A DNA stretch of 64,000 nucleotides from Flexistipes sinusarabici DSM 4947 (GTDB lineage: Bacteria; Chrysiogenota; Deferribacteres; Deferribacterales; Flexistipitaceae). The notes beneath the pieces were generated by a model that saw only the letters and a list, made by a program, of their open reading frames with translations, did no database searches and was not told the DNA's origin. The first letter of the stretch is position 1; every line of letters begins with the position of its first letter. The position numbers were made by a program, and so were the translations under genes. The stretch covers positions 992,001-1,056,000 of the forward strand of contig NC_015672.1 in NCBI RefSeq assembly GCF_000218625.1. The letters are read 5' to 3'. Below, piece by piece: positions 5,495 to 30,401 of this stretch.

Positions 5495-5645
5495 GTGTAA
5501 TTTACCTGTATCTTTTTTTTCTTGTCTATTTTCCCCTTTTTCGCTTTAATAACTAACGATTGCCAGTTTATTTACAGAAAGATAATTTTGAATAATGTAT
5601 TCTTATAAATTTTACCACCCATTAATCCCCCCTAACTCTTTGAAA

Positions 5646-5670
5646 GTATTATTTATCTGTCCCCATTTCC
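5646..5670 (+). repeat. REP-like repeat copy
   Basis: GTATTATTTATCTG followed by TCCCCATTTCC. The same 25-base pattern recurs at 9494, 14176 and, partly, at 14578, 17188 and 19476. It sits in the divergent control region, just left of the importer promoter. Confidence 0.65.
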
Positions 5671-5688: not shown

Positions 5689-5755
5689 AAAAGTTAGATT
5701 TATCTAATTTTTCTGTTGACACTCCTGGAAACAAAAGTTATACACATCTAACTTT
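5689..5755 (+). promoter_or_regulatory. Promoter and paired operator half-sites for the iron-type importer
   Basis: TTGACA (5716-5721), a 17-bp spacer and TATACA (5739-5744) form a strong promoter. The 10-mer AAAGTTAGAT (5690-5699) recurs inverted as ATCTAACTTT (5746-5755), and the two copies flank the promoter. The left copy is itself part of the inverted repeat TTAGAT-TT-ATCTAA (5694-5707). The right copy forms AAAGTTA-N8-TAACTTT (5734-5755) over the -10 box. This does not match the classical Fur box, so the regulator is unknown. Confidence 0.65.
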
Positions 5756-5773
5756 AAACAACAGGAGGAAAAA

Positions 5774-6775
5774 ATGAGAAAATTTGTAATGTTATTTGCA
5801 GCCATAGCACTTTTTTTAGTAGAAACTGGTGCCTATGCAGGCGGTGAAGTAGTGGTATACTCCGCAAGAAAGGAACACCTTATCAAACCCTTATTTGACC
5901 AGTTTACAAAAGATACCGGAATAAAGGTTATCTACACCACAGACAAAGCTCCGGTTCTTTTACAGAAAATTCTGGCAGAAGGTAAAAACACAAGAGCCGA
6001 TATCCTTATGACAGTTGATGCAGGCAACTTATGGCATGCGGCTGAGCAAGGGGTATTGCAACCTATCAAATCGGGTACACTTAACAGTAATATTCCTGAA
6101 CACCTTAAGGATCCGAAAAAGAGATGGTTCGGTTTATCTGTCAGAGCGAGAACTATTATTTATGACTCAAGGGATGTACAGCCTGATGAGCTCAGCACTT
6201 ACGCTGATCTGTCAAATCCCAAATGGGAAAATGAACTTTGTTTGAGAACATCCAAAAAAGTTTATAACAGATCCCTTGTTGCTATGCTTATCGCCGAGAA
6301 AGGTTATGTTGAAACGCTTGATATTGTTAGAGGGTGGGTTAATAACCTTGCAATGAAACCGACATCCGGCGATACAAAGGTTATCGAGGCCATTCTGGCA
6401 GGCAAGTGTAACGTGGGGGTTGTTAACTCCTACTATTTGGGAAGATTTGTGGACAAAAACGGCGAAATTCCTGTAAAAATATTTTGGGCAAATCAAAATT
6501 CCACCGGTACACATGTTAATGTTTCCGGCGCTGGCGTTACAAAATATGCTAAAAACAAAGAAAATGCGGTAAAACTGATTGAATGGCTTTCAGGAGAAAA
6601 GGCTCAAAAAATATTCGCAGAGCTTAATCATGAATACCCCGCAAACCCGGAATCCAAAGTCAGTAAACTGCTTGCAGAGTGGGGCACATTCAAGCAGAAT
6701 GTAATAAATGTATCACTTGCCGGCGAGCTCCAGGATGAGGCGATAAAACTTATGGATGAGGCCGGATATAAATAA
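5774..6775 (+). CDS. Fe(III)-type ABC transporter substrate-binding protein
   Basis: A periplasmic binding protein of 333 residues in the FbpA/FutA family. A signal peptide ends near AYAGG (residues 19-23). The mature part starts VVVYSARKEH, typical of this family, and the paired tyrosines in NSYYLGRF (Tyr220, Tyr221) match the tyrosines that bind ferric iron in FbpA/FutA. Tyr164 in KKVYNRS may also contribute. AGGAGG lies a few bases before the ATG. Permease and ATPase genes follow at once. Ferric iron is the most likely cargo, judged from family residues only. Confidence 0.9.
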   Translation: MRKFVMLFAAIALFLVETGAYAGGEVVVYSARKEHLIKPLFDQFTKDTGIKVIYTTDKAPVLLQKILAEGKNTRADILMTVDAGNLWHAAEQGVLQPIKSGTLNSNIPEHLKDPKKRWFGLSVRARTIIYDSRDVQPDELSTYADLSNPKWENELCLRTSKKVYNRSLVAMLIAEKGYVETLDIVRGWVNNLAMKPTSGDTKVIEAILAGKCNVGVVNSYYLGRFVDKNGEIPVKIFWANQNSTGTHVNVSGAGVTKYAKNKENAVKLIEWLSGEKAQKIFAELNHEYPANPESKVSKLLAEWGTFKQNVINVSLAGELQDEAIKLMDEAGYK

Positions 6776-6778
6776 GCT

Positions 6779-8383
6779 ATGAAAACAGAAAAAATCAGAA
6801 ACTTATCATTAATAATGGTCGCGGCAGCTTTTGCCGCGCCATTTGTTTACATTACTCTAACTTCTTTCGCATTCAGCCCGGAAGAGTTTAGAGAAATTTT
6901 CAACAGATATGACCTGTTCACATTACTACTGAACACTTTTGTACTAATTGTATGTGTCGGACTATTGTCAATGACTTTCGGGCTTTTCTCCGCATGGTTT
7001 GTTACAATGTACGATTTCCCGCTAAGAAAATTGTTTTCCGTACTATTGATATTTCCCCTGGCTTTTCCGGCTTATGTTCTTGCTTTCAGCTGGACAGGAT
7101 TTTTTGGTTTTTCCGGGATTATAAATAAAACTCTTTCTCCAAACAGCATATTTTTCTTGGATATATTCAGAAATCTTGCCGGTGCAACGCTGGTATTGTC
7201 TTTTGCCTTGTATCCTTATATATACTTAATAGCAAAATCGGCTTTTGCTACAATGGGCAAGCGAAGTCTCGAAGTGGCAAATATTCATGGATATTCAGAT
7301 TTTGAAGCTTTTTTCCGTATCATAATCCCACAGATTAAACCCTGGCTTATCTCAGGTTTAATAATTGTATGGTTTGAAACACTTGCTGATTTCGGTGCAG
7401 TGTCAATTCTAAGTGTGGATACATTTACAACAGCTATATATAAAGCCTGGTACGGGTATTTTAAAATTGAAGAATCCCTTCTTCTTGCTTTTTTTCTTCT
7501 TATAAAAGTTTTTATTCTGCTGTGGGTACTGCGCTTGATAGAGGGTAATAAATATTATACTCAGACTGAGAGACAGGACACAAATATTGCTCAAAAGAAA
7601 AACCTTTCGCCTTTTTATAAATCTCTGGTTTTTATATTTTTAACATCTTTATGTACACTCTCCTTTGCTATACCTTCAGCTCAGTTGTTCCATTGGATTT
7701 TTGCTGCTGATCAGCTTAATTTATCGGATATATCACAATATACTTTTAATACTTTTTCTCTTGCCGTTGCCGGGGCGCTATGCATTGTTTTGCTCTCACT
7801 ATATTTAGGGTTCTGTAATAAATTTTATAAAAATAAATTAAGTGGTGCGGTGGGATATTTGGTTAAATCCGGATATGCTTATCCGGGTTCGGTTTTAGCT
7901 GTTGCGCTTTTTATCCCCATAATTAATTTAAGCCAAAACATCAGCAGTTTTACAGGTGTTTCTTTGAATATGCAAAGCACTGTGCTCCCGTTATTTCTTG
8001 GATATATAATAAGATTTTCCGCAGTAGCTTCTGCTCCTGTAAACGGAGGATATCAGAGGCTCAAAAAGTCCGTACTCGAATCAGCAGCATTACTGACAGA
8101 CTCCGTTTCAAGCAAACTTTTCAGAATTGTTCTGCCTGTCTTAAAACCCGGCATAATATCGGCTTTTATTCTCACATTTATCGACATCTCCAAAGAAATG
8201 CCGCTGACACTTATGACACGTCCCTTTGGTTTCGACACACTGGCGGTGAAAATATATGGGTTAACCAGTGAAGGTGAATGGGAAAGGGCTGCACTACCTG
8301 CTATTATTATTGTTTTCCTGGGATTTATACCGATTGCATTTTCTGCGTTATTAAGGAGGAAAAATGTACACCCTCGAAGTTAA
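6779..8383 (+). CDS. Fe(III)-type ABC transporter permease, fused two-domain
   Basis: A protein of 534 residues with about twelve hydrophobic segments, the length expected for FbpB-type permeases in which two permease units are fused. Each half carries an EAA-type loop that contacts the ATPase: SLEVANIHGYSDFEAFFRII in the first half and LESAALLTDSVSSKLFRIVL in the second. It starts three bases after the stop of the binding-protein gene and overlaps the ATPase gene by 20 bases, so the three are translated together. It acts in the inner membrane. Confidence 0.9.
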   Translation: MKTEKIRNLSLIMVAAAFAAPFVYITLTSFAFSPEEFREIFNRYDLFTLLLNTFVLIVCVGLLSMTFGLFSAWFVTMYDFPLRKLFSVLLIFPLAFPAYVLAFSWTGFFGFSGIINKTLSPNSIFFLDIFRNLAGATLVLSFALYPYIYLIAKSAFATMGKRSLEVANIHGYSDFEAFFRIIIPQIKPWLISGLIIVWFETLADFGAVSILSVDTFTTAIYKAWYGYFKIEESLLLAFFLLIKVFILLWVLRLIEGNKYYTQTERQDTNIAQKKNLSPFYKSLVFIFLTSLCTLSFAIPSAQLFHWIFAADQLNLSDISQYTFNTFSLAVAGALCIVLLSLYLGFCNKFYKNKLSGAVGYLVKSGYAYPGSVLAVALFIPIINLSQNISSFTGVSLNMQSTVLPLFLGYIIRFSAVASAPVNGGYQRLKKSVLESAALLTDSVSSKLFRIVLPVLKPGIISAFILTFIDISKEMPLTLMTRPFGFDTLAVKIYGLTSEGEWERAALPAIIIVFLGFIPIAFSALLRRKNVHPRS

Positions 8384-9450: not shown

Positions 9451-9537
9451 GGAAATGGGGACACCCATAACAAGTTTTTTGTCAAGTAGACAAGTATTAT
9501 TTATCTGTCCCCATTTCCCTATCTGTCCCCATTTCCC
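9451..9537 (+). repeat. Cluster of three REP-like repeat copies
   Basis: Three copies lie close together: one inverted (GGAAATGGGGACA, 9451-9463) and two direct (9494-9518 and ATCTGTCCCCATTTCCC, 9521-9537). The inverted copy and the first direct copy form a perfect 13-bp inverted repeat (9451-9463 with 9506-9518). The right edge lies against the remnant gene at 9541. Confidence 0.7.
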
Positions 9538-12791: not shown

Positions 12792-12904
12792 GCATCTCGT
12801 ATTTATAAACTTTAAGATTGCATTAGGAGTTGCAAGCCACCTTTAAGATGTTGTAGATTAAGGTTTTAAGAAAACAAAAACCACAACCAAAAAGGTGACT
12901 TACA

Positions 12905-14218
12905 ATGAGCAAACTAAACTACAAATTAGAAAGAAGCAATGATAAAATTACCCCATTTGGTGGAATATCTTTGTTAATCCCACTGTTAGATAAGATGGGC
13001 ATCCGAGATTTCCTTGATAAAGAACTTGATCATCCAGGCTCTAACAGAGGCAAACCGCCATCTTCTAAAATAATTCCTGTTATTCTATCGATGATATGCG
13101 GTGGCAGGAGTTTCAGTGATATCGACAAACTTTCTTTTGATAAGGTTTTAAGCTATATCAGCGGTATTGAAGATATCCCGGATAGTTCCAGCATCAGTAG
13201 GTATTTTTCAAAAACAGAAAGCATGTTGGATGAAGTAGCAGTTAATAAAACAATCAGCAAACTGGGCAGTCTCAACTATAAAATAGTGAAAGATGCTTTA
13301 AAAAGAGAAAATTTATTTTCAGTTACTCTGGATCAGGACGCCACTTATGCAAAGGTGTATAAAAGGGATGCCAAGTATTGTTATAAGAAATTTAAAGCAT
13401 ACAGTTCTATGACGTGTTTTATAGGAGAGAGCGGTTATTGTATAGACGAGGAATTTCGGGAAGGCAATGTAAGTGCCCAGGTTGGCATACTTGAACAGCT
13501 TCAGAGAGTCCATAAATATCTTGAATCTTGTGGTATAGAAGTATCCAATGTTCGTAATGATTCTGCCGGTTACCAATCTAAAGTATTGAATTACTGTTTT
13601 GATAACGATTTAACGTTTTTTATAGGAGGTGACCTTGATAGTTCAGTTCGTAAAGGAATAAATCATATACCATCTGATTCATGGAAAAGATATAGAAATA
13701 GGTATGGAGATGAAAGCGATAATGAGGAAATAGCAGAGTTTATTCACTGTATGGAAAACACTAAGGAGAGTTTCCGTATAATAGTTGTTCGTAAGAAAAT
13801 TGAGTCAGACAACCCCACAGTTCCGGAGCTTCTTGGTGATAAATATGAATATCGTGTTATTGCAACTAATTCAAAACTGGATGCAGAAAAGGTGGTACAT
13901 TTTTATAATTTGCGCGGTGTTTGTGAATACAATATAAAAGAAGCAAAGTATGGTTTTAATTTAAAAAGCTTTCCTTCGGGTAATCTTGCGGGTAACGGCT
14001 TATGGTTTAAGACAGGAATACTGGCATATAATCTGATTATGTACCTCAAACGAATCATAATGGGAGGTGTCTATAAAAATAAAGAGATGGGTAGTATACG
14101 TTATCAGGTCATATCTATAGCGGGGAAACTTGTGTCCCACGGCGGTAATAAACTGAAGTTGTGCTGCAGTGTGAAGTATAATTTACCTGTCCCCATTTCC
14201 CTTTCCATTTCCCTTTAA
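12905..14218 (+). CDS. IS1380-type DDE transposase, C-terminus altered
   Basis: A transposase of 437 residues in the IS4-like IS1380 group. The N-terminus KITPFGGISLLIPLLDKMGI is typical. Likely DDE residues lie in VTLDQDATY, VRNDSAGYQS and CEYNIKEAKYGF. AAAGGTGA precedes the ATG. The last 15 or so residues (VKYNLPVPISLSISL) are encoded by a REP-like repeat, not by transposon sequence, so the natural end and the right terminal repeat appear to be lost. The element may no longer transpose as a unit, although the catalytic core is open. No second copy is present in this window. Confidence 0.85.
   Translation: MSKLNYKLERSNDKITPFGGISLLIPLLDKMGIRDFLDKELDHPGSNRGKPPSSKIIPVILSMICGGRSFSDIDKLSFDKVLSYISGIEDIPDSSSISRYFSKTESMLDEVAVNKTISKLGSLNYKIVKDALKRENLFSVTLDQDATYAKVYKRDAKYCYKKFKAYSSMTCFIGESGYCIDEEFREGNVSAQVGILEQLQRVHKYLESCGIEVSNVRNDSAGYQSKVLNYCFDNDLTFFIGGDLDSSVRKGINHIPSDSWKRYRNRYGDESDNEEIAEFIHCMENTKESFRIIVVRKKIESDNPTVPELLGDKYEYRVIATNSKLDAEKVVHFYNLRGVCEYNIKEAKYGFNLKSFPSGNLAGNGLWFKTGILAYNLIMYLKRIIMGGVYKNKEMGSIRYQVISIAGKLVSHGGNKLKLCCSVKYNLPVPISLSISL
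14176..14215 (+). repeat. REP-like repeat copy at the transposase/remnant junction
   Basis: GTATAATTTACCTG followed by TCCCCATTTCC (14176-14200) and then a partial second unit TTTCCATTTCCC. It forms the 3' end of the transposase frame, and its right edge meets the flavoprotein remnant at 14218. Confidence 0.65.
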
Positions 14219-14518: not shown

Positions 14519-14577
14519 TGATGGTATTACACGCTGGTATTTAAACAGGCTAAAATCAAATAAATTGATTTATAGGA

Positions 14578-14602
14578 AATAATTTACCTGCCTCCATTTT
14601 TC
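14578..14602 (+). repeat. Diverged REP-like repeat copy
   Basis: ATAATTTACCTGCCTCCATTTTTCC-type sequence (about 14578-14602), a looser match to the other copies. It lies just left of the end of the minus-strand ATPase gene. Confidence 0.45.
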
Positions 14603-16126: not shown

Positions 16127-17011
16127 TTAAACAGAATTCAATCGTTGTATCGAATAAAGTTGATATGGCAAATCTATAGGGACTTTGTGTGCCTTACGTT
16201 CCTTCTTGCTTATTTTATCATCAAACGTTTTATATGCATATTCTATAAAACCTTTGGAGCCTATCACAAGCGTATCTGTAAAATATCTCACCTTGTGATG
16301 CCAGATATTTACCGCCGCATCTGTTTCATCACTTATTCTACCTTTCTCTTTACCCTTCTCTGTCTTTTTCTCAAGTTTGCCTACTCCATAAACAAACGAC
16401 ACATAATCTTTAAAACTATCAATCTCAGTGCCTTCAAAGCTTAATAAATCATCGGAAGATTTCGCTAACCTATGGGAAAAACTGCTCCATCTGTACTCTT
16501 CAGGCTTATTGCAGATTTTTGCCCGTACAGGGTTTAAATCAATGTAGGCAAGCATGTTCAAAAGACTTTCCCCACTTTCCACCAATACACTCTTAAATCT
16601 GTCTCCCCAGAAATAGCCTTTACGGTTGTTTCTTTTGTTGTACCATCTGGAAAACGTCATTTTTATCGATTTTACATACTCAGATATGTCAGTCAGCTTC
16701 TTTTTATATTTTATTATTTCAGATTCCGTGATTTCATCCGAAATATTTTTATTGTGGCGGGATAAACGCTCTTTAAGTTCTTCATTATCTATATCTTCCA
16801 CTGATGAAGTTTTTACGAGAAGGTGAAAATGGTTGTCCATAATACAATATCCAATGACACTTACGAAATACAGAGAACTGAACTGTTTTATCACAGACAA
16901 AAGCTTTTCTTTTTCAACATCACCTAATAAAAATTCTCCGCCTACTGTCCGGGAGATCACATGATAATATCCAACATCACCGTTAATTTTAAACCGTTTT
17001 GTCCTTGCCAT
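16127..17011 (-). CDS. REP-associated tyrosine transposase (Y1/HUH, IS200-like)
   Basis: A protein of 294 residues. The N-terminus ARTKRFKINGDVGYYHVISR is characteristic of the family, and the HUH metal site is His61-Phe-His63 in IMDNHFHLLVK. A catalytic tyrosine candidate is Tyr124 in SRWYNKRNNRKGYFWGDRFK, followed by the conserved DLNPVRA and YRWSSF. These single-strand transposases (RAYTs) act on or spread short palindromic REP sequences. That agrees with the many TGTCCCCATTTCC repeats around it, one of them 172 bases upstream of the start. No IS200-type element ends were resolved. It stands alone and may still be active because all key residues are present. Confidence 0.9.
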   Translation of the reverse strand: MARTKRFKINGDVGYYHVISRTVGGEFLLGDVEKEKLLSVIKQFSSLYFVSVIGYCIMDNHFHLLVKTSSVEDIDNEELKERLSRHNKNISDEITESEIIKYKKKLTDISEYVKSIKMTFSRWYNKRNNRKGYFWGDRFKSVLVESGESLLNMLAYIDLNPVRAKICNKPEEYRWSSFSHRLAKSSDDLLSFEGTEIDSFKDYVSFVYGVGKLEKKTEKGKEKGRISDETDAAVNIWHHKVRYFTDTLVIGSKGFIEYAYKTFDDKISKKERKAHKVPIDLPYQLYSIQRLNSV

Positions 17012-17182: not shown

Positions 17183-17209
17183 GTCAAGTATTATTTACCT
17201 GTCCCCATT
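17183..17209 (+). repeat. REP-like repeat copy upstream of the REP transposase
   Basis: GTCAAGTATTATTTACCTG followed by TCCCCATT. This is the clearest form of the longer consensus that begins GTCAAGT. It lies in the 405-base gap 17012-17416, in which I see no gene and no other clear signal. Confidence 0.65.
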
Positions 17210-17416
17210 CAAGTAATATATGTTTCATTTCTTTTTTTCATTAATTATGCTCCCCGCATATAAATTTCCAACATTACTATTTTATGATCTAAGTGCATTT
17301 TCACCAGAAAATGTGCAGCTGATAATAGTTAAGTACATCTTATTTCTATATAGTTTTTCATATTTTTTGAAGATTATTTATTCTAAATATGATCCGCTAC
17401 CTCCTTTAAGTATTAT

Positions 17417-19162: not shown

Positions 19163-19454
19163 CCTTTCTCCTTATGCTTAGATTGTGCCAAAATATTTAT
19201 TTTTCCCCTTTTTCATGGAAGCTATACACATTGCATTTTAAAAATTAAGCTTACTTTCATAATAATCAGCAAATATTTGTTTGTTACGTAAAAAACATGT
19301 TAATTAATTATTTATTTTTATTTTTTTAGCACTTCAACGTTTAATGTCAAGTAGTGAATGATCTATAAATATACTGGTATCATCCCAAAAATTATACAAA
19401 AGTATTGTTTTACATATACTTAGCCAACATAACATTGAAAAATGTTCTTGCTGC

Positions 19455-19499
19455 AAAAATGGGGTGACGTGATGCATAATTTACCTGACCCCATTTTCC
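19455..19499 (+). repeat. REP-like repeat at the trailer end of the CRISPR array
   Basis: ATAATTTACCTGACCCCATT (from 19476) is a REP-like copy, and an inverted partner AAAATGGGGT (19456-19465) pairs with ACCCCATTTT (19488-19497). Its right edge merges into the last, truncated CRISPR repeat. The rest of 19163-19454 is AT-rich with no gene. Confidence 0.6.
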
Positions 19500-22319
19500 T
19501 CCCCAGAATTGGGAACTAAAACAGGCTAGAACACTGGCACACAAACTTAACATTCCATTCTTTAAATCCCAGAATTGGGAACTAAAACCTGCTGTGTTTA
19601 AACCTTGTGCCATATCATACAAATCTTTAAATCCCAGAATTGGGAACTAAAACTAACATTATATTTCCATTATTAACTTGAACGCTATACTTTAAATCCC
19701 AGAATTGGGAACTAAAACTCAAGATTTGCCCGTAAAGGTCTGCATCTTAACATTAACTTTAAATCCCAGAATTGGGAACTAAAACCACTTGAGATATTTG
19801 AATATTATTTTTTATTAGAAGCTTTAAATCCCAGAATTGGGAACTAAAACAACTCGTTCGTTGATTGTATAATCAACGTGAATAATCTTTAAATCCCAGA
19901 ATTGGGAACTAAAACTCAAGATTTGCCCGTAAAGGTCTGCATCTTAACATTAACTTTAAATCCCAGAATTGGGAACTAAAACCACTTGAGATATTTGAAT
20001 ATTATTTTTATTAGAAGCTTTAAATCCCAGAATTGGGAACTAAAACACATCACCGATCATCTACATGTACTTGCTCTTTATGCTTTAAATCCCAGAATTG
20101 GGAACTAAAACTCGCAAATCCATTGTCCATTCCGGTATTTGGAGACGCTTTAAATCCCAGAATTGGGAACTAAAACCCCTCCACTATTCTTTGTGTACCG
20201 TCTTCTGTAGTACTTTAAATCCCAGAATTGGGAACTAAAACCCAGTAGCGAACTGTTTTAACAATATTAACTTCACTCTTTAAATCCCAGAATTGGGAAC
20301 TAAAACTTTTTTAGCGACTGCAATATGCCGAGCCCCTCCGTTCTTTAAATCCCAGAATTGGGAACTAAAACTTCTATGAGCTCCCGTTACAATTATATTC
20401 TTAAACCTTTAAATCCCAGAATTGGGAACTAAAACCTCTGCTGTATCTGGTACATATACTGAAACATCAAGCTTTAAATCCCAGAATTGGGAACTAAAAC
20501 AAACTGTCAATCTCTTGTCCACGTATATTAAATACGCTTTAAATCCCAGAATTGGGAACTAAAACGAGTTGGGAGAATATAAAACATTAGGTACTTATGA
20601 GCTTTAAATCCCAGAATTGGGAACTAAAACTTTTTCTCAAGATTTTGTGCGCTTCTGAGTGTTGCCCTTTAAATCCCAGAATTGGGAACTAAAACTGCCT
20701 TGTAAATCTTCTTCTGCTTCCGCCCTTTAATCTTTAAATCCCAGAATTGGGAACTAAAACCACTTTGTACGATATCGAATAATGCAGGATTCCGTTCTTT
20801 AAATCCCAGAATTGGGAACTAAAACTTCTCGTCTCACTTTTCTAGCCTCGCTCCATGTAATCTTTAAATCCCAGAATTGGGAACTAAAACCTGCTTGTGC
20901 TATTCTATCCCCTACATTTATTTTAACTTTAAATCCCAGAATTGGGAACTAAAACGCTGTCTTCTATAAAGCAGAACAAATGCCCGAAATGCTTTAAATC
21001 CCAGAATTGGGAACTAAAACTTTATGTAAACAATTGACTAAAATTGCTGAAAGAGTCTTTAAATCCCAGAATTGGGAACTAAAACGGAACACGTTTCATT
21101 GCGTGTTCCTGAATCAAGCGACTTTAAATCCCAGAATTGGGAACTAAAACGTTGAAGGAATTTTCGGTAAACTTGACGGCATTTTTCTTTAAATCCCAGA
21201 ATTGGGAACTAAAACAACATATTATGACACAAAAACCGAAGTAAGTTCAGACTTTAAATCCCAGAATTGGGAACTAAAACCGGGAGGAAGCCAAAAGCGA
21301 TTCCTTTTTCCGCAAACTTTAAATCCCAGAATTGGGAACTAAAACTTTCTCACCTGCATATTTAATATAGTTCGTTTCATTCTTTAAATCCCAGAATTGG
21401 GAACTAAAACTTGCTACTGCTGACATAGTTCCTTTAATGCTCACTACTTTAAATCCCAGAATTGGGAACTAAAACTACAGAAGCGTCTCTAATACCGTAT
21501 TGCTTTCTTATCTTTAAATCCCAGAATTGGGAACTAAAACTATCTTGCAATGACCCTAATGTACTTCAACAACAATCTTTAAATCCCAGAATTGGGAACT
21601 AAAACACTGCTAACGCTGAATATGAAGATACTGCTTTTATTCTTTAAATCCCAGAATTGGGAACTAAAACACTCTCTTATTTTCTTCGGGACTTTTTTCA
21701 AGTCCTCTTTAAATCCCAGAATTGGGAACTAAAACGTCTGAAATAGTAAAACTTATAAGGCCATTATCATACTTTAAATCCCAGAATTGGGAACTAAAAC
21801 GCTATCTACCGTCCCTACAGATGATAAGTCAAGCTGCTTTAAATCCCAGAATTGGGAACTAAAACAGGCGTGCTGCCTTCCAAAGTGCTACTAAGAACGC
21901 CTTTAAATCCCAGAATTGGGAACTAAAACATTTTGTTAGGTCTGGAGATAAGGTAGAAGCTTTTACTTTAAATCCCAGAATTGGGAACTAAAACAATACC
22001 GTTTATCGTTACATCTATACTATCCAATTGCTTTAAATCCCAGAATTGGGAACTAAAACTGTTCATCTTGCCGTTGTTTACAGAATTCTGCAACTCTTTA
22101 AATCCCAGAATTGGGAACTAAAACAACAGCACCGACAATGCCTACCTCTCTAACATCAGCCTTTAAATCCCAGAATTGGGAACTAAAACCAGAGGACAGA
22201 AAGATGAAATACGTAGCAAGGGACTCTTTAAATCCCAGAATTGGGAACTAAAACTTCTTGAGCATTATTAAAGCGTGTGCCTCTGAAATTCTTTAAATCC
22301 CAGAATTGGGAACTAAAAC
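19494..22319 (-). CRISPR. CRISPR array, 44 repeats and 43 spacers
   Basis: The repeat is 29 bp. On the plus strand it starts CTTTAAAT, has the palindromic core CCCAGAATTGGG, and ends AACTAAAAC. I place copies starting at 19494 (degenerate), 19560, 19625, 19690, 19757 and so on to 22291. Spacers are 35-38 bases, mostly 36. The left-most copy has lost its first eight bases; such decay marks the trailer end, and the AT-rich leader with a promoter lies at 22320-22454 next to cas2. The array is therefore read on the minus strand, where the repeat begins GTTTTAGTTCCC. Two spacers near the trailer are duplicated (19719-19821 and 19916-20017). Confidence 0.98.
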
Positions 22320-22739: not shown

Positions 22740-23729
22740 TTACCACCATATTCTCAGACTTTTGTAGTTCTTCTCATTTAAAATATGCTTTATAAGCTTA
22801 TACAATTCAAGTCTTATAAATTTACGGTAAGAGACATCTCTTTTTAGCTGTTTATGTCTTACGGTCTTTTTCATCTTTTCATCAAAAGCTTTAACTACGA
22901 TTTTCCTTCCATCTTCTTTTAAGTAAGCAAAATTAAGGTCTTTATCAAAGTGCTTGGGTTGCAATTCATCATTATTTAAAAGATCAAAAATAATTCTGTC
23001 TCCATATATTGGTTTAAAGATTTCAGCTACATCAAGTGCAAGAGAAAATCTTCTGTACCATGGTTCATGAAGAAAGCTTATTGTCGGATTGAGCTGAGTG
23101 CGGTAAATTTCTCTTAATACATTTGAATAAATCAATCCGTTCATAAATGAAATAATGGCATTCATCATATTGTTAGGAGGATTTTTTATTCTTTTTTCAA
23201 AGTCAATTTTTTGTTTTATAATTTTTTTGAAAGACGAATAATATATTTCTTTTATGTTTCCTTCTACTCCCATAAGAGAAGGAACAGAGTATTGCTCATC
23301 AATTGCTGAAATTAGTAGTTTTATTTTATCGATTTGCTCAAAAGTATATGTTTGATATCTTTTTAAATTTTGCAACATTCCGTGTGCAGCACCTTTTACA
23401 AATTCCTGTGCCAATTCCAATCTATATGAATTGTTCAAATAATGTTCCGACTGTTTTACAACTACTTCACCGGCGTTTAAAAATTCTTTTGGATAAAACG
23501 TACCGGTATAATAGCCGTAATAGTTAAAAAAATGAATCATTACATTATTTTTGGAAAAAAAGTTTATCAGTTTTGTATTAAAATCAGTTTCGCTAAAAAC
23601 AAAAATAGAGTCTATATCATTTACCGGGATGGGGATTTTTTTGGCCACACCGTTGTCAAAATAGTCAAACATTACACTATTGTCTTTTCGGCTTATTCTG
23701 CCGGATTTAAAAATATAATAATCTCTCAT
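22740..23729 (-). CDS. cas1: CRISPR-associated integrase Cas1
   Basis: A protein of 329 residues. The N-terminal beta domain is followed by the helical catalytic domain with Glu156 in MGVEGN, His221 in SFLHEP and Asp233/Glu236 in LALDVAEIFKP, the expected metal-binding set. The late motif RKFIRLELYKLIKHIL is also typical. It catalyses insertion of new spacers at the leader with Cas2. Gaps of three bases on both sides show one operon. Confidence 0.96.
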   Translation of the reverse strand: MRDYYIFKSGRISRKDNSVMFDYFDNGVAKKIPIPVNDIDSIFVFSETDFNTKLINFFSKNNVMIHFFNYYGYYTGTFYPKEFLNAGEVVVKQSEHYLNNSYRLELAQEFVKGAAHGMLQNLKRYQTYTFEQIDKIKLLISAIDEQYSVPSLMGVEGNIKEIYYSSFKKIIKQKIDFEKRIKNPPNNMMNAIISFMNGLIYSNVLREIYRTQLNPTISFLHEPWYRRFSLALDVAEIFKPIYGDRIIFDLLNNDELQPKHFDKDLNFAYLKEDGRKIVVKAFDEKMKKTVRHKQLKRDVSYRKFIRLELYKLIKHILNEKNYKSLRIWW

Positions 23730-23732
23730 TTT

Positions 23733-24227
23733 TTAAACGTAACAAAGCTCAAAATAACTGCATTTTTTACATATTTTTTCATTAATCACATCCGGAGGCG
23801 TTTCTCTACTTGTTATTTCATTTATTTTATCACAAATATTTACAATATGATAAATATCTTCATCATTTAAATCTATATTCTCTGTTTTGCGAATCAGAGG
23901 ATAATTAATTTTTCCGGTCACATTTATGCCCAGTTGTCTGAAATAGTAAATGTAATATTTAAGCTGCCATATGTGTGCATCTTCTATTGCTTTTGATTTT
24001 TTTACTTCATGAATAATACCTTTGTTTTTGTCAAAAAAGTCTATTTTTATACCATCAAGTTCGATTTCTTTTCTTTTTCTTTCGTAAGAAGTTTCATGAA
24101 CTATTTTGCCTATTTCAACACTTTCACTGTATTGTTCCATGCTTATATTATGCGAGAAAAGCCACAGCTTCCTTTTGCAAACAAAGTAGTAATTTATCTG
24201 AGTACCGGTAACTATTGGATTCAACAT
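23733..24227 (-). CDS. cas4: CRISPR-associated exonuclease Cas4
   Basis: A protein of 164 residues of the small Cas4 type. The four iron-sulfur cysteines are Cys17 in YFVCKRKLW and Cys153, Cys156 and Cys162 in ICKKCSYFELC. The RecB-like nuclease core has HEV and the Lys in EVKKSK, then the QLKYYIYYF motif. Cas4 trims prespacers and helps select those with a correct PAM. It lies between cas3 and cas1, a position usual for I-B. Confidence 0.95.
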   Translation of the reverse strand: MLNPIVTGTQINYYFVCKRKLWLFSHNISMEQYSESVEIGKIVHETSYERKRKEIELDGIKIDFFDKNKGIIHEVKKSKAIEDAHIWQLKYYIYYFRQLGINVTGKINYPLIRKTENIDLNDEDIYHIVNICDKINEITSRETPPDVINEKICKKCSYFELCYV

Positions 24228-24230
24228 GAG

Positions 24231-26372
24231 TTATAGTATAAAATTATCCATATCGTTATATTCTTTTTTAAACTCAACACCTTTTTCATAAGTATATTCT
24301 ACACCTTTTAACATTTTGATTTCACTTTTTTTTATATATTTTGAGTCTACTGGTAAAGGTTTTACGATATCTTTAGCCTTATTTGCAAATATTTGTAGGC
24401 TTACACAATATTTGTTTAGCTTTTCTTTCAATTTAATCCGTTCTAAACTACTTGTTTCTTCAATCTGAGAGATTATTTCTTTTATTTCCTCTTCATTTTT
24501 ATTATATACAGGTTCAGGTATTACATTATGGGTATTTGTAATTTTTCTGAAGAGTTTTTGTGCTTCATTTTTACTTGATTTAAAACCACTTTTTAGTAAT
24601 TCTTTGTATTCTTTATAAGATTTGTAGTAGCAAGTTTTTTCAATATCCTGAAAAACTTTATCAATCATTTCTTGCTTATCTTTTTCAGTCAACAGTTTTT
24701 TGTTATAATCATTTCTAAGTATAGAGAAGCTTCTCTGCAATAAATTTTTATCGTAAATTTTTTCAGAAATGTTATCAAATTTAAATATGAGAATATTAGG
24801 ATTTTCTCCATAATATTCTCTTTTTCGATAACATCTGCCAAACCTTTGAAGTAGACCATCAATCGTGCAACATTCAGTAAGCAGTAAGTCGAAATCGATA
24901 TCAAGACTTGCTTCAACAATTTGTGTTGTTATCCAAATTCCATTGCTACATTTCATAATTGTTTTTTCTTTAACATTTCTGTGTTTGTTAATAAATTTGG
25001 AATGTAGTAATTTAGGTTTCTTCTCTTTCAATTTTTCATAGATTTTTTGTGCTTTGGATACGGTGTTGCAAATAACAAGGACATTGTTCGATTGAATTTT
25101 TTCAAAATCATAATCTTCTATTTGCATATCTAACACTTCGATCTTATGTCGTTTTTTTTCTGACAATTGGGGGTTCTCAAAGTGAACAATATTTTTAAAC
25201 TCTTCTTTTATAAAAGGTGGTAAAGTTGCTGTCATGATTAAAAATTTAGCCCCAAGATGTGATACTTCCTGCAAAAAGACTACAATGCACGCTATTGACT
25301 CAGGAGCAAAGCTTTGGATTTCATCAACAACTACTTTGGAGTAGCTTGCTACTAAATAGGGGAGTTCGAATCCATTATATTTGAATACACTTGTAACCAT
25401 TTGATCAGCAGTGGCAATTGTTAGTGGATAACTTAATTGTTTTGCTTTGGACATTTTGTGATCGTAGTCATTTTTGCTGTCAGTTTCATTTGTCAAGAAA
25501 TAACTTATATCACCGTGAAGAAGTGCAACATTTTCTTTGCTAAAAAAATCGGCAAAACGTTTGTGCATAGCGTTTACAGCAATACGAATCCCTAAAAGAT
25601 AGAATGCTTTGTTACCTTTAATCCAATTCATGGAATATTCAGTTTTACCTATTCCTGTAGAAGCTATCAAAATAACATTTTTATCTGAAAGATTTTTTGC
25701 ATTTTTTTGAAAAGGTTTTAACTCTTTAATTCCCCTCTTTTGCAATCCTATCTTGAAATCATTTTGGTAATTACCTTTATATTCTGTTTCACACGGAGTG
25801 CCGGCTGAAGCAGAGAAGTCACATTTATGCAAAATTCCCTTAAAAAGAACAAGATACTCAAAAATATTCTCAAAGTTGTCATTTATACTATTTTCAAGAT
25901 TAGTCAGGTTTAATAATTTGTTTAGTGCGTATTTTATACCTAATAAATGTTTGTTTCTTTCTAAATCATATTCAACAGTTGATTTAAAGTCATTTTTATC
26001 AAAAATTTCATTTCTGGTGTGATGAAATGCAATTGAGTATCTCAATACATTGTAAAGATTAAAATTATTAGCATCCAAGTTAAGTATTTCTTCTTTTAAG
26101 TTTTTTGGAATAAAGGCTAATGAAAGCCATTCGTGTGGTACTTCCGGGATATCAGTTAATTCCTTCGGAATTTTATTTTTGCATATCCCTAATTTGTTTT
26201 GAAACCTTGTGTTGATTTTGCCATAATCATGCAACTCTAGCATTTTTTGCAAATATTTATCATATTTTTCTATAAGTTGGGGTGATATATATCTTTTTAA
26301 AATATCGTAATTCTTTACAAGATCTTCATTATGTTCAAAAATAGTTTTAGGAGGATTTGATTTAGCATACAT
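24231..26372 (-). CDS. cas3: CRISPR-associated helicase-nuclease Cas3
   Basis: A protein of 713 residues with both parts fused. The N-terminal HD nuclease has His14 in EHNEDL, His48-Asp49 in ELHDYGK, the His pair in AFHHTRNE and Asp185 in HKCDFSAS. The superfamily-2 helicase has Walker A ASTGIGKT (237-244), motif II as DEIQ (350-353) in place of the more usual DE.H, SAT-like TATLPP, and motif VI QRFGRCYRKR. It is recruited by Cascade to unwind and degrade target DNA. The DEIQ form is worth noting but occurs in this family. Confidence 0.95.
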   Translation of the reverse strand: MYAKSNPPKTIFEHNEDLVKNYDILKRYISPQLIEKYDKYLQKMLELHDYGKINTRFQNKLGICKNKIPKELTDIPEVPHEWLSLAFIPKNLKEEILNLDANNFNLYNVLRYSIAFHHTRNEIFDKNDFKSTVEYDLERNKHLLGIKYALNKLLNLTNLENSINDNFENIFEYLVLFKGILHKCDFSASAGTPCETEYKGNYQNDFKIGLQKRGIKELKPFQKNAKNLSDKNVILIASTGIGKTEYSMNWIKGNKAFYLLGIRIAVNAMHKRFADFFSKENVALLHGDISYFLTNETDSKNDYDHKMSKAKQLSYPLTIATADQMVTSVFKYNGFELPYLVASYSKVVVDEIQSFAPESIACIVVFLQEVSHLGAKFLIMTATLPPFIKEEFKNIVHFENPQLSEKKRHKIEVLDMQIEDYDFEKIQSNNVLVICNTVSKAQKIYEKLKEKKPKLLHSKFINKHRNVKEKTIMKCSNGIWITTQIVEASLDIDFDLLLTECCTIDGLLQRFGRCYRKREYYGENPNILIFKFDNISEKIYDKNLLQRSFSILRNDYNKKLLTEKDKQEMIDKVFQDIEKTCYYKSYKEYKELLKSGFKSSKNEAQKLFRKITNTHNVIPEPVYNKNEEEIKEIISQIEETSSLERIKLKEKLNKYCVSLQIFANKAKDIVKPLPVDSKYIKKSEIKMLKGVEYTYEKGVEFKKEYNDMDNFIL

Positions 26373-26374
26373 AT

Positions 26375-27094
26375 TTAAGTTTCCAAAAAACTTACAAATA
26401 ACCCATCTTCATCGATTAAAAATGTTTCTGCTGTGTATTCATTTAAGATAGTATTTTTAGAAATAAACTGACAGTTTACTTTGTGAAAAATTCTACTATC
26501 AGAAAAAGAAGTTACATTTTCATAGCGAAAAGGTAGCCTGAAACTGGTTCCGGATAATTGCAACTTTTTTGCATCTTCTGAATTTACGTAAATTGAGTAT
26601 GGAAGTTCATTTTCATCATCTGAATAAGAAATTTCTGTTAATTTTGTTTCGTCAAAATTGACTCTTGCAATATCCTCATTGCGTCCCAAAATGACAGTGT
26701 TTTTCATTACTTTTTCATAAAGATTTTTGGTTAATTCTTCATTTTCAAAAGCAATATGTATAATTAGTTTGCAGTTTATTAGATTGTCAACAAAAGCAAT
26801 ACCGTGTGTTGCAGTTTTTACAGAGTTACCAACTTTAACAATATAAGGATTGATTGGTCTTGATTTCGGATCTCTATCAAACTTCATAACTTTCTGCATA
26901 TTTACTGTTACGCTGTCAGAGTTTCCCTGTATTGAGATTTTCAACGGATTATATTTTGTTAATTCAAGAATTTGATGAGCCATTCCCCTCACCATTGAAG
27001 GGGTAGGGAGGGGATAACTTTGAACATGACCAAAACTGTTTTCTTTTCGGAAGTTAACCATATTTTGATACAAAGAGAGCTTTAAAGATATCAA
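26375..27094 (-). CDS. cas5: CRISPR-associated protein Cas5 (I-B/Tneap type)
   Basis: A protein of 239 residues with the RAMP-type N-terminus MISLKLSLYQNMVNFRKENS and the typical SYPLPTPSMVRGMAHQIL, matching Cas5 of the Tneap group. In Cascade it caps the 5' handle of crRNA. It overlaps cas7 by four bases (ATGA), so the two are translationally coupled. Two bases separate it from cas3. Confidence 0.9.
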   Translation of the reverse strand: MISLKLSLYQNMVNFRKENSFGHVQSYPLPTPSMVRGMAHQILELTKYNPLKISIQGNSDSVTVNMQKVMKFDRDPKSRPINPYIVKVGNSVKTATHGIAFVDNLINCKLIIHIAFENEELTKNLYEKVMKNTVILGRNEDIARVNFDETKLTEISYSDDENELPYSIYVNSEDAKKLQLSGTSFRLPFRYENVTSFSDSRIFHKVNCQFISKNTILNEYTAETFLIDEDGLFVSFLET

Positions 27095-28026
27095 TTTTGA
27101 CCCTCAAAGTATTGTTTTATTTTGTTGTTTAAATTTGTAAAAAATTCTTCAACGCTTTTAATTTCAATATTTAATTTGTCAGTATTTTTAAAATGACCAT
27201 CTACTGCACCTGCTTGAGTATTGTTCTTTATTGGTTTTTCATTAAATAATTGTGTTTCTAATATTGAATTAACAATATTTTCATTTAAAAAAACTCCATC
27301 TTTTGAAAATGAAAGTTTAAGTTGGTTATAGAAAAAGGGATTTCCGCTTTCATATATGCCGCCAATAACAAAAATTGGATTTAAATTTTCCCTTCTGCCT
27401 TTTATGTCTCTGTTTAGTGTTTTTACTGAATAGAATAATGCTTTTAATCTTTTGATTTTTTCAGTAGTGTCCAGATTTACACTGTCATTTTCATCCACAC
27501 CTACTTTATCAAGATCTACTGTAACACTATATGAATAATAGCTTCTGTGGGTTTCTGTTTGATAAATTTGGTTTTCAAGGTTTTTTCTGGCAGCCAACCC
27601 CATATTAGTTGAGAAATCAATTTCATTGTAAAATGGTTCTAAACTTACTGCATCACTAATACGTGCTATTGCCTTTCTTATTTTTGTTTTTCCTTCATTG
27701 TCACTCTGATTTTTATCTTCATCTTTGTTACTTTTTTTCTTTTCTGTTTTCATATATCCAAAGAAGTCAATTTCAGGATAATCAGTTATCTTGGCACCGC
27801 TTGCAAACTGAACGACCTTTTGTACATTGTCTATTTCGGCTTTATCATATCCGCATTCTTCTTCCATAATTCTTACTATATCATACCTTATAGCTTGACG
27901 GGTTATATAACTATAGGTTTGCTCTCCAATTGAACACTTTTTCAGAGAAGTATAATTACCCATACTTTCTCCATAATTAAGGTTGGTTCCTTTAAAGATT
28001 ATTCCTAAATGTAAGTGTTTACTCAT
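27091..28026 (-). CDS. cas7: CRISPR-associated protein Cas7 (Cst2/DevR family)
   Basis: A protein of 311 residues. The start LHLGIIFKGTNLNYGESMGN with SYITRQAIRYDIVRIM, and the later SDAVSLEPFYNEIDFSTNMG, resemble the Cst2/DevR branch of Cas7. It polymerises along the crRNA to form the Cascade backbone. A lysine- and glutamate-rich loop (KKKSNKDEDKNQSDNEGKTK) interrupts the middle. It overlaps cas8 by eight bases. Confidence 0.9.
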   Translation of the reverse strand: MSKHLHLGIIFKGTNLNYGESMGNYTSLKKCSIGEQTYSYITRQAIRYDIVRIMEEECGYDKAEIDNVQKVVQFASGAKITDYPEIDFFGYMKTEKKKSNKDEDKNQSDNEGKTKIRKAIARISDAVSLEPFYNEIDFSTNMGLAARKNLENQIYQTETHRSYYSYSVTVDLDKVGVDENDSVNLDTTEKIKRLKALFYSVKTLNRDIKGRRENLNPIFVIGGIYESGNPFFYNQLKLSFSKDGVFLNENIVNSILETQLFNEKPIKNNTQAGAVDGHFKNTDKLNIEIKSVEEFFTNLNNKIKQYFEGQN

Positions 28027-29599
28027 TGTTTTCCCCCTTTTCGTTCTGATAGGTATTTAAAAGACCGTTTATAAAACTGTACCCAAATTGTAAAAAAGCA
28101 TCTTTGTTATTCATTTCTACATTTCCAAATCTTGATTCAAGACCGTTTGAAATTGTAACCCTCAAATACTTGTCTAAAAATTTTTCTCTATTAGCAACTT
28201 TCAAATCATTAAGAAATTGGTATACAAGGCTATTTATTTGGTTTTCCCGTTCACTGGATCTAAATAGATTACCTATTTCTTTTCCATTTGCGAAACCTTT
28301 CTTAGATATTTTTTCCATATCCATGCTGTTTCCTCCATGTATAAAATTTATATATCTTAGAATGTATTTTATTATTTTATAGGGGCTGAATTTCCTGCCT
28401 CCATCAGTGTTGCTAATATAAATACGTATATATTTATCAATATCTTTATAACCTAACGTTTGTTCTATTGTAGATTTTAAAATATTTTCTTCTATATCAA
28501 AAAAACTTTTATCAATTTTATAATATCCTTTGGGGATTAACTGATTGTTTTTATCTATAAAATTAGCTAGTTTTTCTGGCATTGAAAAAGAGTAAACATT
28601 ATAACCTTTTGTACTTTGCCCTCCCATCCCGCTTTCTTTAACTTCTACAAAAGATATGTTGTGTAATGTTTTTTCGGCTTTGGTGGATTTTGTAAATTTA
28701 ACAGATTCCTTTACCATGACCGGATATATAGAGAATGAGCTTTTAATATCTTCTAATTGATACCTAAACTGTATATAACTTTTTAACAATAAGTTAATAT
28801 TACCATTATGGTTTACAAAATAAAAACAGTTATTATAATTTTTTCCTTTTTTGCTGAAAACCAAGCCTACACTGGCTGATATATAAATTAAGGAACATAC
28901 TGAACAAAACTTGACTTTGTTGGCGTCAAATCCCCATATCCAGTTTGAATTGTCACTATTAAAACCTATAATATTTGAGATTGCATTACTTACATCAAAT
29001 TTTCCTTTTCTTTCCTGACAGGAAATACAAAATCTGTTTTTTTTACTCTTTATTTTATATTTTTTATCAACAGAGTCATTAATATACTGACCTATTTTTG
29101 ATAATCCTATTATTCCATTTGTAAGATATCCTAATAATTTTTCTAGTGAAGCCTTGTCTTTATTTTTAATTAATTCATATATTTGTTCTTTTGTTATACT
29201 TTCTATTTTTGCGTAAAATTCAAGAAAATCATTTTTACTTTCCAGGCTTTGATCAAGTGTTTTCCATAACCCTTGAAACGGAAACTTATCTACTTCTTTT
29301 TTAGATTTGGAAATATTCAAACTATTGTCTTTGTTTTTGTGAGTTAAAGCTTTGTTTATATAAGCTAAATATTGCGTTTTGTTAAAATAATTAAGAAATA
29401 ATTGTTTATAAAAGTTTTCTTTGAAGTATTTCAATATATTAGGATTGAAGTCTAAAAAATTATCTCCGATGTAAAGGTCTTGATTGTCGAACTCTGAGAG
29501 TTTTTCAAAATTATTGTTACAAATAGTTCTTAAAAAACCGACTATTCCGGCGTTAAAGTACCAGTCTCCTGTGTAAATTCTTATTAATTCATCACTCAT
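28019..29599 (-). CDS. cas8: CRISPR-associated Cascade large subunit, Cst1 (CXXC-CXXC) type
   Basis: A protein of 526 residues. The start IYTGDWYFNAGIVGFLRTI and two zinc-finger halves, Cys191/Cys194 in FCISCQERKGK and Cys232/Cys235 in FCSVCSLIY, are the mark of the Cst1 family. This subunit recognises the PAM in Cascade. Cst1 has been placed under different Cas8 subfamilies in successive classifications; with Cst2 and a fused Cas3 I call the locus subtype I-B (Tneap). Very AT-rich and Lys/Asn-rich. It overlaps cas6 by four bases. Confidence 0.88.
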   Translation of the reverse strand: MSDELIRIYTGDWYFNAGIVGFLRTICNNNFEKLSEFDNQDLYIGDNFLDFNPNILKYFKENFYKQLFLNYFNKTQYLAYINKALTHKNKDNSLNISKSKKEVDKFPFQGLWKTLDQSLESKNDFLEFYAKIESITKEQIYELIKNKDKASLEKLLGYLTNGIIGLSKIGQYINDSVDKKYKIKSKKNRFCISCQERKGKFDVSNAISNIIGFNSDNSNWIWGFDANKVKFCSVCSLIYISASVGLVFSKKGKNYNNCFYFVNHNGNINLLLKSYIQFRYQLEDIKSSFSIYPVMVKESVKFTKSTKAEKTLHNISFVEVKESGMGGQSTKGYNVYSFSMPEKLANFIDKNNQLIPKGYYKIDKSFFDIEENILKSTIEQTLGYKDIDKYIRIYISNTDGGRKFSPYKIIKYILRYINFIHGGNSMDMEKISKKGFANGKEIGNLFRSSERENQINSLVYQFLNDLKVANREKFLDKYLRVTISNGLESRFGNVEMNNKDAFLQFGYSFINGLLNTYQNEKGENNE

Positions 29600-30333
29600 C
29601 CGATGACCTCCAGCATTCCAAAACCCTGAGAACGCTTAGCTCCTAAGCCGGCATCATAGATTAGCTGGAGTATTTCACCTGGTGCTGAAATTTTGATGAT
29701 ACCAGTGTTTCCGATTTCTCCACCATAGTGGTTAATTATGTCCGATTTCATTTTGACAGGCTCAACGGAAATTTCATTTTCGGATATATTTGTTTCCTGT
29801 AAAAAGTGATTTGCAAGATGTGTGATATTTTTTGTAAGATTGCCTGAAAAATTTTTATGATTAGAATCTATAAAACCTTTCCCCTTCCCATTATGTAAAT
29901 CACGGACAAGAATAGGGGAGAGGGTTTTAAAGACTGTTGTACTGTCATCAATCTTTTTGTCTTTTTCGAGATTTATGTGCTCAATTTTCTGGACAGCATC
30001 TCCAAAAATTTTTGCCTCGTTTTTTTCTTGTAATAAAGCATTGTATACTGTCATTCCAAAAGTATAATCCGCAAAAGAAAAATGTATTTTTAAAGAATCG
30101 TTTTCCAAGATAAAATAATCGTTTCTACTGTTCGGTTTTTCGGCAATACTAAAAGAGACAGAGAATGTGAAAGGTTTCGGTTGGTTTTCCTTTTTATTTG
30201 CATAATATTTTTCGTAAATTTCCGGAGCATATTCGGACAAAGAGTTTTTAATATATCTTAAAACATCACGCCTGTATTCTGTCCTTATTTTATTATCACC
30301 TTTTGCAAATTTAAGCCAATATGTTAATCTCAT
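29596..30333 (-). CDS. cas6: CRISPR RNA endonuclease Cas6
   Basis: A protein of 245 residues and the first gene of the cas operon. It has the RAMP fold with the C-terminal glycine-rich loop GLGAKRSQGFGMLEV. It processes the array transcript within each repeat, leaving an 8-base 5' handle. On the minus strand the repeat can form a 5-bp stem TCCCA/TGGGA, a likely recognition element. AAAGGTG precedes the ATG. Confidence 0.92.
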   Translation of the reverse strand: MRLTYWLKFAKGDNKIRTEYRRDVLRYIKNSLSEYAPEIYEKYYANKKENQPKPFTFSVSFSIAEKPNSRNDYFILENDSLKIHFSFADYTFGMTVYNALLQEKNEAKIFGDAVQKIEHINLEKDKKIDDSTTVFKTLSPILVRDLHNGKGKGFIDSNHKNFSGNLTKNITHLANHFLQETNISENEISVEPVKMKSDIINHYGGEIGNTGIIKISAPGEILQLIYDAGLGAKRSQGFGMLEVIG

Positions 30334-30372
30334 AATACACCTTTATTATTGAATGTCTTATTTCGATTTAAA

Positions 30373-30401
30373 AATTTATCATTTTCTACTCACAATTTCA
30401 A
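30373..30401 (-). promoter_or_regulatory. Candidate cas operon promoter
   Basis: On the minus strand TTGAAA (30396-30401) and TAAATT (30373-30378) are separated by 17 bp, about 40 bases upstream of cas6. The match is moderate. Confidence 0.35.

Follow-up and report, generated by a model that had tools for sequence, protein, structure and literature searches.

In the window, by which we mean the whole 64,000-nucleotide stretch of DNA analysed, the trailer end of a type I-B CRISPR array is very likely a deletion junction made by mobile DNA. Three parts meet at this point: a MITE that has lost its right end and its right target duplication, a solo 25-nt transposon end followed by five nucleotides, and a CRISPR repeat cleanly truncated to 21 of its 29 bases (Table 1). 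Because the same 25-mer is found at other truncation points in the chromosome, the most apt reading is a deletion associated with the TIR, which took away trailer flank as well as part of the terminal repeat. The initial annotation had already proposed a rearrangement at a sharp junction, and this proposal is supported by the loss of the MITE end and by the 25-mer at the other truncations. In most descriptions of CRISPR arrays the trailer is the conserved, anchored end, and the locus provides a concrete case in which debris of mobile DNA has, on this reading, clipped that end.

Table 1. Features of the window and of the junction at the trailer end of the array (positions are those of the window, except in the first line, which gives chromosome positions).
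Feature	Position	Strand	Remark
Window	992001-1056000		Part of a single 2,526,590-bp contig, equal in length to the published Flexistipes sinusarabici MAS10T chromosome (PMC3236037)
TIR copy	5644..5668	+	No counterpart found in sister species; uninformative
TIR copy	9492..9516	+	No counterpart found in sister species; uninformative
DDE insertion sequence (IS) copy cut at TIR edge	12810..14173	+
Solo TIR	14174..14198	+	Inner edge directly abuts the truncated IS
Diverged TIR	14575..14599	+	Surrounding block collinear between the two species; counter-example, no break
Y1/HUH tyrosine transposase (RAYT/TIRYT type)	16127..17011	-	TIR ~175 nt upstream of start
TIR beside transposase	17186..17210	+	Sister-species homology stops at outer edge
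9 bp left of MITE (ATAAATATA)	19365..19373	+	No counterpart on right side
MITE copy	19374..19470	+	Lacks terminal ~3 nt (CAG) and right target duplication
Solo 25-nt TIR ("REP-like")	19472..19496	+	Motif GGGGTCAG on - strand; outer edge toward array, inner edge toward MITE
Filler TCCTC, 5 nt	19497..19501	.	Between 25-mer TIR and repeat
Retained 21 nt of terminal repeat	19502..19522	-	Last 8 transcribed nt (ATTTAAAG) missing, expected at 19494-19501
Oldest surviving (last) spacer, 37 nt	19523..19559	-
CRISPR array, 44 repeats / 43 spacers	19502..22319	-	Leader right, leftward transcription
Block duplication inside array	19690..20009	-	123 nt at 19690-19812 again at 19887-20009
Type I-B cas genes cas1, cas4, cas3, cas5, cas7, cas8b1/Cst1, cas6	22740..30333	-	NCBIfam

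The array and its three-part trailer end

The CRISPR-Cas system is type I-B, as all seven type I-B Cas families were matched beside the array in an NCBIfam profile search, with the Cas5t match falling under its own NCBIfam cutoff and over the general Cas5 cutoff. The trailer is the left end of the array, which runs from 22319 down to 19502, and the cas genes lie to its right on the - strand. Repeats of 29 nt alternate with spacers of 35-38 nt, and repeats 2-44 are identical at 29/29 bases (43 of the 44 repeats are letter-perfect), reading CTTTAAATCCCAGAATTGGGAACTAAAAC on the + strand. The duplicated block inside the array comprises two repeat-spacer units, and the second spacer of the copy differs by one T in a homopolymer run. 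CRISPR repeats are tabulated as 0 for this chromosome in the genome paper (PMC3236037), as against the 44 repeats located here. In addition, the Rfam family rliB, a Listeria sRNA, matches the array at 19896-20259, probably via similar CRISPR repeats only.

The sequence of a sister species (G001) is 97% identical to the window from 30387, just right of the cas operon. Hydrogenase genes beside the CRISPR-Cas site (window 30334-30400) are common to both species, and the CRISPR island is not conserved. Immediately left of the 97% block, the sister species has a Cas6 that differs from the one in the window, together with a putative Cas8-like reading frame, both recognised by eye (G001:C17:1-1800, L136). 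As a different putative module thus stands beside the same genes, an exchange of CRISPR modules appears to have taken place at this hydrogenase-adjacent site.

All 21 retained bases of repeat 1 (19494-19522) are identical to CCCAGAATTGGGAACTAAAAC, and at positions 19494-19501 the sequence reads TTTTCCTC where CTTTAAAT is expected, with 3/8 bases matching. Alignment of the array confirms the earlier statement that the last repeat keeps 21 of 29 bases and that its final eight are replaced. The edge of a REP-like copy had been named as the replacement; the eight bases are indeed replaced, but the 25-nt unit ends at 19496, with TCCTC and then the 21 nt of the repeat following it. The pattern is not that of a terminal repeat decayed by point changes, given that no retained base has changed, that the other repeats are all perfect and that point decay is absent array-wide.

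The element to the left of the 25-mer is a MITE, with TIRs, with target duplications in its full copies and without coding capacity. The ends of the family read CTGRYRTCACCCCA, full copies span 101 to ~370 nt, and target duplications of 8-10 bp are present in 8 of the 9 distinct full-length copies. The copy in the window, on the other hand, ends at GACGT and not at GACGTCAG. The absence of both this end and the target duplication shows that flanking DNA was removed, independently of any feature of the array. An apparent 10-bp hairpin at this place takes its left arm (AAAATGGGGT, 19456-19465) from the right end of the MITE and its other arm from the 25-mer. As a terminator for the array this hairpin was rejected, since it folds no better than shuffled sequences (z about -1.3) and was missed by the terminator scan.

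The 25-mer and its place at other truncations

The 25-mer is the TIR of a TIRtron, that is, of a Y1 transposon with a RAYT-like transposase. Its consensus, from 40 copies in three genomes, is AA[AT]G[CT]AT[AT]ATTTACCTG[AT]CCCCATTT, and ~26 copies within 3 mismatches are present in the 2.53-Mb chromosome. This identification follows from the position of the 25-mer upstream of and around Y1 genes, from its fit to a known motif and from its lack of a palindrome. At several independent loci it lies in fixed orientation upstream of RAYT-type Y1 transposase genes, and at one of them (L185 5642-6901) inverted TIRs, on the - strand at 5642 and on the + strand at 6877, bracket an intact Y1_Tnp reading frame at 5695-6603. 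A miniature element bracketed by inverted 25-mers keeps 47 nt of the transposase gene of this locus at 89% identity. In the transposase profile search, Y1_Tnp was the only match at E <= 5. TIRYT elements are recognised by flanking inverted copies, by the motif GGGGWSAS and by a subclass 2.1 transposase with a C-terminal helix-turn-helix; this motif belongs to the TIRYT terminal repeats (PMC3733652, PMC6006769), and the other strand of our consensus contains GGGGWCAG, which fits it.

The initial annotation had called the replacing sequence REP-like. Its multicopy nature was borne out, as the 24-mer so described has a second copy in the window against 0 expected in 100 shuffles, but the sequence comprises two elements, a MITE end and a TIR, and is not a REP. 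A canonical REP is ruled out for the 25-mer: the copy at 14174 folds no better than shuffles (z = 0.82) and forms no palindrome, a GTAG/GTGG-type head is absent from the consensus, and its 26 copies compare with the more than 100 of a high-copy REP family.

Several copies of the 25-mer stand where another sequence breaks off. The DDE insertion sequence cut at 14173/14174 has ~30 near-identical copies, and the five that were read onward continue for at least 130 nt past the cut point. At 772,920 in the chromosome, a Glycos_transf_4 gene is truncated at the 25-mer, with just profile positions 122-159 of 160 surviving, and the counterpart in the sister species is a 710-aa stop-to-stop frame without the 25-mer. 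The flanks of the copy at 878,026 lie ~23.7 kb apart in the sister species, with homology on either side ending no more than ~5 nt from the 25-mer. At 1,906,660, sister-species homology (661 bp, 92%) ends at the 25-mer, which reading frames enter from both sides. These four cases were kept as breaks, and the copies at 617643/618880 and 17186 were set aside as normal transposon ends. Flanks in the genus-mate were placed among the matches listed (40 scored candidates), where an unmapped flank does not stand for absence. Truncated putative defence genes meet at a solo TIR (L187 5894-10415, chromosome 1,905,893-1,910,414), and in the same region an AbiEi antitoxin gene has another TIR near its end; no AbiEii toxin was seen next to this gene.

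Origin of the junction and the fate of older spacers

In the sequence of events that we favour, a TIRtron, or a solo copy of a TIRtron end, would have landed within a trailer-side CRISPR repeat or next to one. From the inner edge of the TIR, an adjacent deletion would then have extended to the right end of the nearby MITE. Along with the last bases of the MITE and its target duplication, this deletion would have taken out the DNA in between, the final eight bases of the repeat and probably also older repeat-spacer units. We infer the order of these steps, the involvement of a transposase and the loss of spacers from these remains, and we consider the full account, including the probable loss of older units, likely.

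The 21-nt repeat could instead have been the terminal repeat from the outset, truncated or decayed past the Cas6 site before the TIR and the MITE accumulated next to it in a gene-free flank; any deletion would then have been small and local, and all spacers would have been kept. The 5' handle of a type I crRNA is 8 nt long, and a terminal repeat is dispensable beyond the Cas6 cleavage point. The repeat breaks off exactly 8 nt before its end, at what we take to be the predicted Cas6 cleavage point and the start of the next crRNA's 5' handle, and as a last repeat can do without the eight bases that follow, this one may be the original. Terminal repeats commonly carry 3' substitutions or truncations without any mobile element (PMC8047081), the terminal repeat is likewise 3'-truncated or substituted in the arrays of two relatives, and the perfection of all other repeats leaves no sign of a lost decayed tail. 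What makes this explanation unlikely in our view is the presence, no more than 5 nt from the cut, of one of the ~26 25-mers of the chromosome, a proximity that ties the deletion to the truncation of the repeat and would arise by chance with a probability of the order of 1e-4, together with the flanking DNA lost at the MITE and the truncations that the same 25-mer marks elsewhere.

Homologous recombination between direct 25-mers, one in the array and one at the MITE, might also have deleted the segment without any transposase. The window does carry six same-orientation 25-mers between 5.6 and 19.5 kb, copies of REP and IS elements are described as hot spots of recombination (PMC11708052), and the 123-nt block has been duplicated within the array; however, 25 bp is short for homologous recombination, and two independent TIR insertions would be needed at this one place. 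In addition, one TIR edge borders a gene that the sister species has in intact form and without a TIR, which means that an insertion must have come first in any case, and we regard this route as quite improbable. An artefact of assembly or sequencing, which might be suspected where three repeated sequences meet, is extremely improbable, as the record is a single contig whose length exactly equals that of a published, finished chromosome (PMC3236037), the sequence context of the junction is unique, and comparable junctions are seen at other places.

Returning to the TIR-associated deletion, a cut within a repeat would more probably have hit one of many internal repeats than the original last one, and because it could fall in any internal repeat of a longer array, we lean towards the view that older spacers were lost with it. 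We go no further than to infer such a loss, since the collections scanned gave no related array, orphan repeats were absent and 3' truncation is ordinary. Orphan spacers had been suggested as something to seek in the left flank, but neither orphan repeats nor orphan spacers are present there, the best repeat-like stretch in the 2.3 kb left of the array matching at 17/29 against a flat background of 16/29. Elsewhere in the chromosome there are likewise no orphan repeats or spacers, and the 21-base repeat core does not recur with <=2 mismatches. Scans of GTDB species genomes, IMG/VR and plasmids yielded no array with this repeat, and no phage records matched any part of the array.

Two repeat-like sequences in other genomes were observed. 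One genome (G010, L001 1501-1595) contains an orphan mini-array, with a repeat matching the focal one at 28/29, a 37-nt spacer and a degenerate second repeat (18/29), and searches of this genome with the focal Cas1 and Cas7 gave nothing. A 26/29 match to the CRISPR repeat lies within the 5' end of a putative conjugation lipoprotein gene in the sister species (L003 1501-1529, G001:C4:134185).

The breaks described above suggest that solo 25-bp ends of this transposon family, which has been little studied, mark deletion junctions at other places in the genome as well. A wider proposal, in which TIRYT transposon ends act as fixed endpoints of adjacent deletions genome-wide and prune CRISPR arrays from the oldest end, is tentative, and we hold it to be possible but doubtful. 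If true, such pruning would be a way for arrays to lose memory other than by recombination between repeats.

Comparison with known systems

The truncated repeat recalls the degenerate terminal repeats of other arrays (PMC8047081), but here there are no other changes, the replacing sequence is mobile DNA, and the loss is supported by independent evidence. REP and REPIN sequences with their RAYTs are similar in being short multicopy units tied to a related transposase, and differ from the 25-mer in the palindrome, GTAG-type tag and copy number discussed above. The junction resembles IS-adjacent deletions without target duplications (PMC11708052) in having a mobile element at the deletion junction and a target duplication missing; the difference is that only a 25-bp transposon end is left here and that the lost DNA lay beside or inside a CRISPR array. 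There is also a likeness to TIRtrons and TIRYT elements (PMC3733652, PMC6006769), which share with the 25-mer a Y1 HUH transposase associated with a repeat family, the motif, inverted copies flanking the gene, and both solo and paired copies. A difference is that in this genome solo TIRs recurrently fall together with truncated genes, with an IS, with a MITE and with a CRISPR array, an association not described in the passages of the two papers that were consulted.
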